Assembly (NCBI GenBank): GCA_027485615.1
Contig: JAIXQS010000144.1
Location: 1 to 64,000, forward strand
DNA length: 64,000 nucleotides
Direction of reading: 5' to 3'
DNA from: Verrucomicrobiaceae bacterium
Lineage (GTDB): Bacteria > Verrucomicrobiota > Verrucomicrobiia > Verrucomicrobiales > Akkermansiaceae
The position numbers and the translations under genes are program-made. Position 1 is the stretch's first letter. Each line of letters opens with the position of its first letter. Under the pieces are notes generated by a model. The model searched no databases. It was not told the DNA's origin and saw only the letters and a list, made by a program, of their open reading frames with translations. Below, piece after piece: positions 3,519 to 29,258 of this stretch.

Positions 3519-4484
3519 ATGACTACTCGCATCAAGGCTCTCACGACCCTCCTCGGCCAATGGTGGGACTCCGACTACCGGGCTCCCGGCTCGCCGGATC
3601 CCTCCACGCTTCCAGACAAGGTGGACTGGCAGCGAACGATCCCGTTTATCTTCCTCCATCTTGGATGCCTCGCCGTTCTCTGGGTCGGCATCAGCCCTGT
3701 GCCGGTCATCGCGGCGGTCGCCCTGTATTTCGTCCGCATGTTCGCGATCACCGGATTTTACCACCGCTACTTTTCGCACCGCTCCTACAAGACCTCCCGC
3801 GCCTTCCAGTTCATCCTCGCCATCGTGGGAAATACCTCGATGCAGCGCGGCTCGCTCTGGTGGGCAGCCACGCACCGCCACCACCACAAGCATTCAGACG
3901 AGGAGGAGGACATCCACTCGCCGCGCGTCAGCGGCTTCCTATGGTCGCACATCGGCTGGCTCACCTCGAAACGGAATTTCCCCACCAACTACAAGGCGAT
4001 CCCGGATCTCGTGAAGTTCCCGGAGCTTGTTTTCCTGAACCGCTTCGACCAGCTCGTCCCCATCGCGTTCGGCATCGTGATGCTCGCCATCGGGTGGGCG
4101 CTGGAAACCTTCGCCCCTTCGCTCGGCACGACGATGTGGCAGTTCTTCGTGTGGACGTTCTTCATCTCCACCACCGTCCTGCTGCACGGCACCCTGTTCA
4201 TCAACTCCCTTGCCCATGTGTGGGGGAAACGCCGCTTCGCCACCGAGGACGACTCCCGCAACAATTTCTTCCTCGCCCTCATCACCCTCGGCGAGGGCTG
4301 GCACAACAACCACCACCGCTTCCCGCACTCCACGCGCCAGGGCTTTCTGCCTCACGAGATCGACCCCACCTACTACATCCTTCGTATCTTGGAAAAGTTC
4401 CGTCTTGTCTGGGATCTCCGCCCCGTGCCCGAGGCCGTGATGGAGGAGGCGCGCAACAACCCGCTCACGCGCCATGAGCGGTAA
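3519..4484 (+). CDS. Membrane fatty-acid (acyl-CoA/lipid) desaturase
   Basis: A 321-residue integral-membrane di-iron desaturase. The three histidine boxes are complete: HRYFSHR (82-88), HRHHHKH (119-125) and HNNHHRFPH (262-270), with the extra His in NSLAHVWG (His233). Four transmembrane helices flank them. It belongs to the delta-9 stearoyl-CoA desaturase-like branch, which introduces a double bond into a saturated acyl chain. Its 3' end overlaps the following FAD-enzyme gene by 11 bp, so the two are translationally coupled. That pairing suggests it supplies an unsaturated chain for the downstream enzymes. Confidence 0.93.
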   Translation: MTTRIKALTTLLGQWWDSDYRAPGSPDPSTLPDKVDWQRTIPFIFLHLGCLAVLWVGISPVPVIAAVALYFVRMFAITGFYHRYFSHRSYKTSRAFQFILAIVGNTSMQRGSLWWAATHRHHHKHSDEEEDIHSPRVSGFLWSHIGWLTSKRNFPTNYKAIPDLVKFPELVFLNRFDQLVPIAFGIVMLAIGWALETFAPSLGTTMWQFFVWTFFISTTVLLHGTLFINSLAHVWGKRRFATEDDSRNNFFLALITLGEGWHNNHHRFPHSTRQGFLPHEIDPTYYILRILEKFRLVWDLRPVPEAVMEEARNNPLTRHER

Positions 4485-5910: not shown

Positions 5911-6663
5911 ATGTCCCACGCTCCATCCCTCTACGAATGCCGCGTGAACCACACCCGCATCTCCCCAAAGAAACATGCATTCACCTACCGCGTCTTCATG
6001 CTCGCCATCGACCTCGATGACTTCCCGAAACTCCCTCTCCTTTCCAAGAACCGCTTCAACCTCTTCTCCATCGACGACCGCGACCACATCCTCACCGAGC
6101 CCGAAAAATCCACCCGAGAAAACCTCACCGCATGGCTCGCCGAAAAAGCAACCACCATCCCCGCCGACGCCCGCATCATCCTGCTCACTTTTCCCCGCGT
6201 CCTGGGCTACGCCTTCAACCCCGTATCCTTCTACTACATTTCCAGTAAATCCGGCGAGCCCATCACCGCCGTCGCCGAGGTCACGAACACCTACCGGGAA
6301 ATGAAACTCTTCCCCCTTGGCGTGCCGGACGCCGAGGGAAAATTCGACCATCTAATCGCCAAAAATTTCTACGTATCCCCCTTCTCCGATCCCAACGACG
6401 CCTTCCACTTCCGTATCGGCCAACCCGGGGAAAAGTGGCACGTATCCATCAACAACCTCACCGAAGGCAAGCCCACCCTCATGTCCTCCATCACCGGCGA
6501 GCGCCGCGAGCTCACCACCGCCCGCCTCGCCCTCTACGCCCTGAAATACCCCCTCATCTCCCTCTCCATCATCTTCCGAATTCACCTCCACGCCCTCCTC
6601 CTCTTCCTCAAGAAAATCCCCCACTTCCCGAAATCCACGCCCGTGAAAGGACCCGCGATTTAG
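5911..6663 (+). CDS. DUF1365 protein of the lipid-modification cluster
   Basis: A 250-residue DUF1365 (COG3496) protein. Recognisable family features are the opening LYECRVNHTRISPKKHAFTY, the conserved VLGYAFNPVSFYY segment, EVTNTYREMKLF, and KNFYVSPFSDPNDAFHFRI. The fold and reaction are not established. Family members sit between a COG2907 flavoprotein and a CFA-like methyltransferase, exactly as here. There is no signal peptide; the C-terminus is hydrophobic (YPLISLSIIFRIHLHALLLF), suggesting membrane attachment. The stop codon TAG lies inside a dispersed palindrome (6654-6671). Confidence 0.9.
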   Translation: MSHAPSLYECRVNHTRISPKKHAFTYRVFMLAIDLDDFPKLPLLSKNRFNLFSIDDRDHILTEPEKSTRENLTAWLAEKATTIPADARIILLTFPRVLGYAFNPVSFYYISSKSGEPITAVAEVTNTYREMKLFPLGVPDAEGKFDHLIAKNFYVSPFSDPNDAFHFRIGQPGEKWHVSINNLTEGKPTLMSSITGERRELTTARLALYALKYPLISLSIIFRIHLHALLLFLKKIPHFPKSTPVKGPAI

Positions 6664-6671
6664 AAATCGTG
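6654..6671 (-). repeat. Dispersed palindrome, family A (copy 1)
   Basis: The sequence CGCGATTTAGAAATCGTG is a near-perfect palindrome around a TAG centre. It supplies the stop codon of the DUF1365 gene. Two further copies lie at 11685-11702 and 29241-29258, in the opposite orientation relative to the plus strand. Similarity with the 11685 copy extends into the flank (GGGTTGTC and GGTGGAAGA on the minus strand), so this is a dispersed repeat rather than a chance palindrome. It may act as a transcription-processing or termination hairpin. Confidence 0.65.
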
Positions 6672-6727: not shown

Positions 6728-8092
6728 ATGAACCCCGTCCATTCTGAACTCTGCGACCCTCAGGGATCTCTTCGCCTCTGCGGCAAAAAATCCGCCACCC
6801 TCCCGGAAAAGATCGTCCTCTCGCTTCTCCGCAAATTCACACAAGGCGGACTCTCCCTCTCATACCCGGATGGACAAACCCTCCACTTCGGCGAAGCCGG
6901 CGCCCCCATCACCGCCCGCATCACCCTCAACAACCCTGCGGAGTTCTACAAACGCTGCGCCTTCTACGGCAACATCGGCATGGGCGAGGCCTACACCGAC
7001 GGCGTCTGGGACACCCCCGACATCGCGGCCGTCATCTCGTGGTTTGCCATGAACATGACCGCCCTCCAGGGCGACGACTCCGATTCCTCCACCCTCCCCG
7101 GCGTCAACCTCCTGAAGATCGTCAACTGGTTCCGCCACCTCAAGCGCTCCAACACCGTCGAGACCTCCCGCCGCAACATCGCCGAGCACTACGATCTCGG
7201 TAACGAGTTCTACTCCCTCTGGCTCGATGAGACGATGACCTACTCCTCCGCGAAGTTCACCCCGGAAAAACACCGAAGGCCTGTAGGTGTTTTGGACAGG
7301 AGCTCAGCGACGTGGGGCGAAGCCCCGAAGTGCCGTGAGGTGGCGCTGAGTCAAACGCAAACCCTCGCCGAAGCGCAGGCCGAAAAATACGACGCCCTCT
7401 GCCGAAAACTGAAACTAAAGCCCACCGACCACGTCCTCGAGATCGGCTGCGGCTGGGGCGGTTTCTCCCACCACGCCGCCAAAAACTACGGCTGCAAAGT
7501 CACCGCCGTCACCATCTCCGAAGCGCAAGCCGCCTACGCCCGCCAACGCATCGAAACCGCCGGCCTCGCCCACCTCGTCGAGATCCGCATCCAGGACTAC
7601 CGCCACATCACCGGAAAATTCGACAAGATCGCCTCCATCGAGATGCTCGAAGCCGTCGGTCACAAGTTCCACGAGCCCTTCTTCGCGAAATGCCACGAGG
7701 TCCTCACGCCCCATGGACTACTGGGAGTGCAGTACATCACCGTTCCCGACAACCGATACCAATCGCTCACCAAAGGCGTCGATTGGATCCAGAAAGTCAT
7801 CTTCCCCGGCTCCCTCCTGCTCTCCGTCGGCCGCGTCAACGAAGCCATCAACAAGACCGGCAACCTGTTTCTCCACCACCTCGAAGACCTCGGCCTTGAC
7901 TATGCCCGCACCCTTTCCACCTGGCACGAAACCTTCAACGCCAAGCTCGACCAAATCCGCCCCCTCGGCTTCGACGAACCCTTCATCCGCACCTGGAACT
8001 ACTACCTGAAATACTGCGAAGCCGGCTTCGCCACCCGCAACATCTCCGTCGTCCAGGCCATCTACACGCGACCGAACAATTTGAAACTTTAA
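6728..8092 (+). CDS. Cyclopropane-fatty-acid-synthase-like SAM methyltransferase with in-frame insert
   Basis: A 454-residue protein of the CFA synthase family (COG2230). It has an N-terminal lipid-binding region (residues 1-150), RRNIAEHYDLGNEFYSLWLD before the active site, the SAM motif VLEIGCGWGGFSHHAA (about 236-251), IEMLEAVGHK and a C-terminal YYLKYCEAGF. These enzymes transfer a methyl or methylene group from SAM to unsaturated phospholipid acyl chains at the inner membrane face. Residues 181-209 have no counterpart in the family and correspond to a palindromic DNA element inserted in frame (7268-7354). It could still be functional because the frame is kept, but the insert lies between the conserved YSSAKF and the SAM domain. 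Confidence 0.92.
   Translation: MNPVHSELCDPQGSLRLCGKKSATLPEKIVLSLLRKFTQGGLSLSYPDGQTLHFGEAGAPITARITLNNPAEFYKRCAFYGNIGMGEAYTDGVWDTPDIAAVISWFAMNMTALQGDDSDSSTLPGVNLLKIVNWFRHLKRSNTVETSRRNIAEHYDLGNEFYSLWLDETMTYSSAKFTPEKHRRPVGVLDRSSATWGEAPKCREVALSQTQTLAEAQAEKYDALCRKLKLKPTDHVLEIGCGWGGFSHHAAKNYGCKVTAVTISEAQAAYARQRIETAGLAHLVEIRIQDYRHITGKFDKIASIEMLEAVGHKFHEPFFAKCHEVLTPHGLLGVQYITVPDNRYQSLTKGVDWIQKVIFPGSLLLSVGRVNEAINKTGNLFLHHLEDLGLDYARTLSTWHETFNAKLDQIRPLGFDEPFIRTWNYYLKYCEAGFATRNISVVQAIYTRPNNLKL
7268..7354 (+). repeat. In-frame palindromic element inside the CFA-like gene
   Basis: About 87 bp (29 codons) interrupt the otherwise family-typical run from YSSAKFTPE to TQTLAEAQAEKY. The DNA contains nested inverted repeats: CTCAGCG (7303-7309) pairs with CGCTGAG (7344-7350), and GGGGC (7314-7318) pairs with GCCCC (7322-7326) around a GAA loop. 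The encoded peptide (KHRRPVGVLDRSS, then ATWGEAPKCREVALSQ) is Arg-rich and low in hydrophobic order, unlike the host protein. The insertion keeps the frame. This resembles protein-coding palindromic elements such as those of Rickettsia, although no sequence relation is claimed. Borders are accurate only to a few bases. Confidence 0.65.
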
Positions 8093-11684: not shown

Positions 11685-11702
11685 CGCGATTTCTAAATCG
11701 CG
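11685..11702 (-). repeat. Dispersed palindrome, family A (copy 2)
   Basis: CGCGATTTCTAAATCGCG is a perfect palindrome apart from its centre. It lies between the ECF sigma stop codon (11710) and the vWA start (11622). The flank GGGTTGT and a GGTGGAAGA unit are shared with copy 1. Positioned in the sigma-vWA intergenic transcript, it could form a hairpin that sets their relative expression, but that is inference. Confidence 0.65.
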
Positions 11703-29240: not shown

Positions 29241-29258
29241 CGCGATTTCTAAATCGCG
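29241..29258. repeat. Dispersed palindrome, family A (copy 3), between convergent genes
   Basis: CGCGATTTCTAAATCGCG is identical to copy 2 and lies between the ABC permease stop and the sucD stop. The right flank (CGGCTCCGTTCC) resembles that of copy 2. In this convergent setting it could serve as a two-way terminator hairpin, though it has no T tract. Confidence 0.6.

Follow-up and report, generated by a model that had tools for sequence, protein, structure and literature searches.

How 87 extra nucleotides came to lie in frame within a CFA synthase gene, and what they are, is the question raised by a gene at positions 6728-8092 on the forward strand of the window, the 64,000-nucleotide stretch of Verrucomicrobiaceae DNA analysed here. 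The gene is open throughout, encodes 454 amino acids and belongs to the CMAS family (CFA synthase; Pfam PF02353, E 5.8e-81). The insert occupies 7268-7354 on the same strand (codons 181-209), its net length of 87 nt being defined by the empty site in orthologs; in G014, for instance, the DNA alignment reads TTTACACAGG followed directly by AAACCCAAACC. The junction can be slid by 2-3 A, and the coordinates follow the family convention that the insert follows SAA. A covariance model of the element matches 7266-7354 with 102.5 bits. The first-pass annotation had proposed an in-frame insert in a CFA-synthase-like gene that splits the YSSAKF/TLAEAQ junction without breaking the frame; the PF02353 match, the exact empty site at the same coordinates and the ortholog alignment bear this out.

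In the protein, the insert adds 29 in-frame residues, KHRRPVGVLDRSSATWGEAPKCREVALSQ, between the conserved segments YSSAKFTPE and TQTLAEAQ, and it coincides with the break point in the alignment to the E. coli and Lactobacillus CFA synthase structures. Among 29 relatives with a CFA protein match, G016 alone aligns straight through the insert, and nearly all other matches come in two pieces that leave out approximately residues 181-208. The 29 residues are not a family-wide trait, orthologs other than that of G016 being without them; the insert is derived, and its frame is open. Because it lies between two codons, is a multiple of three long and is open in the sense frame, translation should yield a loop of 29 residues joining the two conserved segments. 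The enzyme appears to tolerate this loop, and the insert-bearing protein is presumably made and active. An AlphaFold prediction run without an alignment was uninformative, with a mean pLDDT of 34.

The earlier suggestion that the insert is one of many copies proved correct. The window's genome contains three, and related genomes hold many more: BLAST detected the element in 21 of 59 relatives and the covariance model in 31 of 59. We collected about 100 distinct copies, all from Verrucomicrobiota, with 87 nt as the commonest net insert length; once duplicates and copies not ending in CAA had been discarded, the set numbered 102. A 288-genome sample of the phylum yielded 15 positive genomes, every one from a single family; copy number reached 15 in small genomes of one genus, probably the gut genus Akkermansia. 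When one genome per species was scanned across GTDB (84,980 species) with a 22-letter pattern, 26 matches were obtained, exclusively in Verrucomicrobiota (Akkermansiaceae, Luteolibacter, Haloferula and Akkermansia). Viral carriage was considered and rejected, as the exact pattern had zero matches in IMG/VR. Rfam did not match the element at either gathering or permissive cut-offs. In G049, three head-to-tail copies form a tandem array with a period of about 84 bp (L201, 189-441).

The conserved fold of the element is four consecutive hairpins. In the CFA gene, all on the forward strand, P1 (7267-7293) pairs AAAACACC (7267-7274) with GGTGTTTT (7286-7293) around the loop GAAGGCCTGTA, and is followed by the unpaired stretch GGACAGGA (7294-7301), whose columns are near-invariant. 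P2 (7302-7308) is a short GC..GC stem, 7302-7303 with 7307-7308, which is longer in some copies, such as CCCGC-TCA-GCGGG in L012. P3 (7314-7326), GGGGC-GAA-GCCCC, shows covariation and is mostly CCCC/GGGG elsewhere, while P4 (7329-7347), AGTGCCG/TGGCGCT, is the most variable stem. The element closes with GAGTCAA (7348-7354), for which the family consensus is GA(A/G)TCAA. Across 24 copies aligned by sequence alone, the consensus runs from P1 (AAAACnnC..GnnGTTTT around GAAGGCTTGTA) through GGACAGGAGC and the short P2 to GACGTG, P3, the variable P4 and GA(A/G)TCAA. The inverted repeats reported initially, CTCAGCG/CGCTGAG (7303-7309/7344-7350) and GGGGC/GCCCC (7314-7318/7322-7326), are both present, but the outer, nested pairing is not part of the conserved fold.

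The structure is supported by covariation and not by the stability of single sequences, which did not exceed that of shuffled sequences (z 0.16). In the 24-copy alignment, 92.4% of the cells pair, and both sides have changed in 15 of 22 pairs, including 4 of 8 in P1 and, as compensatory changes, 7 of 7 in P4. The covariation score is 0.438, versus 0.157 in shuffles (0 of 500 as high) and at most 0.115 in slid controls. In the G049 array, P1 has a different sequence and still pairs. G.U and U.G pairs outnumber A.C and C.A mismatches by 27 to 6 in the sequence-only alignment, which was not fitted to the model, and by 73 to 15 in a larger alignment that was, and that leans in this direction for that reason. 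Given this excess, the folded strand appears to be the sense-frame strand. Such a bias suggests that selection acts on a single strand in an RNA-like manner; this fits RNA, though the strand may also be single-stranded DNA.

The sole target preference detected is a (G/C)AA trinucleotide immediately 5' of the insert. Of 102 copies, 98 and 95 have A at the last two positions ahead of the junction, and 93 have G or C preceding these, counts that should be read in light of the CAA end having been a selection criterion for this set. The host genes are mostly unrelated. They encode RHS proteins (Rhs_assc_core match; also in L171), an HsdR-like helicase interrupted between DIKPLE and CLIFLRD, integron integrases (TIGR02249 match, with further cases recognized by motif) and an IS110 transposase; IS91-type transposases, RAYT-like transposases and HigA-like antitoxins were assigned by motif reading only. 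Insertions in integrases are mostly antisense. In Akkermansia-like genomes, the RHS site between YNKRSE and LTGA is empty in L171 and filled in L115. In L171, two adjacent RHS genes each contain this same element in frame, within their core region and ahead of PIQWSSEMYDAE (1501-1586 and 4371-4456), and three copies break an apparently single integron integrase gene in L196 (552-640, 1258-1345 and 1756-1845). Some copies appear nested, with the outer element interrupted, for example after GGGCGAA in L104.

Insert length depends on the kind of host. With host classes assigned by ourselves and events not all independent, multiples of three make up 12 of the 15 insert lengths in cellular, RHS or antitoxin hosts (p 0.0003), versus 4 of 17 in integrase and transposase genes. 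This contrast indicates that selection on the host keeps the frame, and dispensable host genes commonly carry out-of-frame insertions. The element itself gave no indication of selection on its encoded peptide; within it, variation does not peak at third codon positions. The otherwise intact hosts that carry out-of-frame copies, such as the integron integrase of L015 with 88 nt, could be taken to mean that the insert is removed or skipped at the RNA or translation level, like an intron or a bypass, and never enters the protein. We consider this very improbable, as the surplus of frame-preserving lengths in cellular, RHS and antitoxin hosts would then be needless, and the lack of an Rfam match speaks against any known ribozyme family.

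The history of the CFA site allows several readings. In FastTree trees built on the CFA gene and on the gene next to it, G000 groups with G004 as its sister, and G016 with G014 (support 0.947 and 1.000 in one tree set, 0.992 and 0.983 in the other), and both sisters, G004 and G014, are without the insert; the two CFA insertions do not track the gene tree. Between G000 and G016, the inserts are 95% identical, versus 81% for the CFA gene and 57.5% for its third positions; in 87-nt windows along the gene, identity peaks at 92%, and none reaches 95%. The two elements differ by three codon changes, all nonsynonymous. The insert may have been gained twice, gained once and then precisely lost several times, or transferred locally, in each case with or without constraint on the element. 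With SAA as the only target, independent insertions at one and the same site would be surprising.

At other shared sites, too, copies are often better conserved than their own flanks, a pattern not expected of simple passenger DNA. Element identity is 0.88-0.98 at integrase sites, versus 0.57-0.83 in the flanks, and 0.97 versus about 0.65 at a RAYT-like site; some RHS copies behave likewise, whereas in the HigA-like and IS91 groups the element is not uniformly above its flanks. Random pairs of copies share a mean identity of 0.69. Together with the conserved loops and the RNA-like wobble asymmetry, this conservation could suggest a structured RNA, or its gene, that is functional where it sits and is kept by selection rather than by mobility. 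We think this improbable: the sites lie mostly in genes that are unrelated and in many cases mobile or degenerate, sister species are without the element, and the G016 copy is changed at positions otherwise conserved in the family.

The same insert scattered over related bacteria in unrelated genes argues for a small mobile element. We therefore favor, with a probability of roughly 0.75, a small mobile element that is non-autonomous, belongs to a family spread through Akkermansiaceae and allied Verrucomicrobiales, and is tolerated in the CFA gene. The multi-copy family, its structure and its target are observed directly; that the element moves is what we infer from them. One strand folds into the four consecutive hairpins, and insertion occurs directly after (G/C)AA, leaving at most an AA duplication; in the mechanism we propose, a mobiliser would act in trans on this folded single strand, as RNA or ssDNA.

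Searches for a mobiliser, made in draft genomes, found none, which weighs against the favored reading, as does the conservation of copies above their flanks. The richest Akkermansia-like genomes (G063, G162 and G126; completeness 98-99%) contain no PF01797 (Y1), PF00078 (reverse transcriptase) or PF07282 (TnpB-like) match, and their TIGR02249 (integron integrase) matches are weak, below cut-off and at the level of Xer recombinases. None of these four enzymes qualifies as a required partner, being absent from the most element-rich genomes; given the draft state of the genomes and a possible loss of the mobiliser, this absence is not final. A TnpB guide RNA was rejected on the lack of a TnpB-like domain in these three genomes and of an Rfam match, and the guide-RNA idea also because flank-element matching was no higher than in shuffles. 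An integron cassette or attC site was discarded, as no integrase in Akkermansia-like genomes exceeds the cut-off; across the genus, integrase presence does not clearly track the element.

IS200/605 elements have hairpins at their ends and a short target adjoining the left one. The element has a similar look, in that hairpins lie close to either end, the 3' end is TCAA and a short target adjoins the left end, and 57 of 59 relatives have Y1 transposases. A REP or IS200/605-type element moved as folded ssDNA by a Y1 (RAYT/TnpA) transposase, present or since lost, is nevertheless unlikely. The element occurs 2 to 15 times in G063, G162, G126, G109, G241 and G337, which all lack a PF01797 match, while at least one Y1 gene is present in each Akkermansia-like genome tested that is free of the element; none of the 10 Y1 loci searched has an element copy. 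The left-half pattern is never found without the right half, which argues against a split autonomous copy. Some copies do interrupt genes that resemble RAYT, an assignment made by motif only. As to the nature of the favored mobile element, a selfish structured-RNA element that spreads and seemingly returns to the same sites, using none of the enzymes tested (HUH, reverse transcriptase, TnpB, integron), is a tentative proposal that we would rate as possible but doubtful.

Protein-coding palindromic repeats have been described mainly in Rickettsia and Wolbachia. The RPEs are small, structured and in frame in unrelated genes, with orthologs sharing a site (PMC2229807, PMC3767692), and an RPE host enzyme, Gmk, is translated and active according to a passage in PMC2229807 that cites Ogata 2000 and Abergel 2006. 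Like the Rickettsia and Wolbachia elements, which are ~100 bp, palindromic, multi-copy and tolerated in unrelated ORFs, our element is inserted in frame with the ORF kept in unrelated genes (CFA, HsdR-like, RHS and HigA-like). It differs in phylum and in its SAA target; its size is comparable, 87 nt being somewhat below the RPE range of about 100-150 bp. The long stem-loop with 12-bp terminal inverted repeats of RPEs is absent here, and four serial hairpins with unlike ends (AAAC.. and ..GA(A/G)TCAA) are found instead. Compared with the published descriptions of RPEs, the evidence supports an element that behaves as they do and is set apart by the missing terminal inverted repeats; we regard it as RPE-like and do not count it as a member of that group. 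The Rickettsia-type reading suggested initially is supported, the small size, palindromic sequence, multiple copies and tolerated in-frame position in unrelated ORFs all fitting.

REP/RAYT elements (GTAG/CGTC families; PMC3733652), in which the Verrucomicrobia species O. terrae is reported to be rich as GTAG repeats, are likewise short dispersed hairpin DNA with some intragenic copies. However, they are 20-40 bp tagged single stem-loops, unlike the untagged multi-hairpin element of 87 nt, and element-rich Akkermansia-like genomes have no match to a Y1 transposase. The enterobacterial sequences ERIC/RU-1, RU-2, RU-3 and other bacterial MITEs are also small, non-autonomous and both inter- and intragenic, some with open frames (PMC2229807, PMC2759123), but the element has neither terminal inverted repeats nor TA ends. 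In the open-access literature we found no Verrucomicrobiota description beyond the GTAG REPs of O. terrae; an earlier one elsewhere is possible.

The Verrucomicrobiota family, Akkermansia-like genomes included, offers free-living hosts, some of them culturable, for studying how palindromic repeats move and how proteins absorb them. The frame contrast between cellular and mobile hosts suggests that the in-frame habit arises from selection after insertion, and comparative genomics can be aimed directly at the missing mobiliser. Separately, the window contains the palindrome GCGATTT-NN-AAATCGC three times (6655-6670, 11686-11701 and 29242-29257; 0.07 expected), the first copy overlapping the end of an ORF; it is probably a terminator-like or REP-like repeat.
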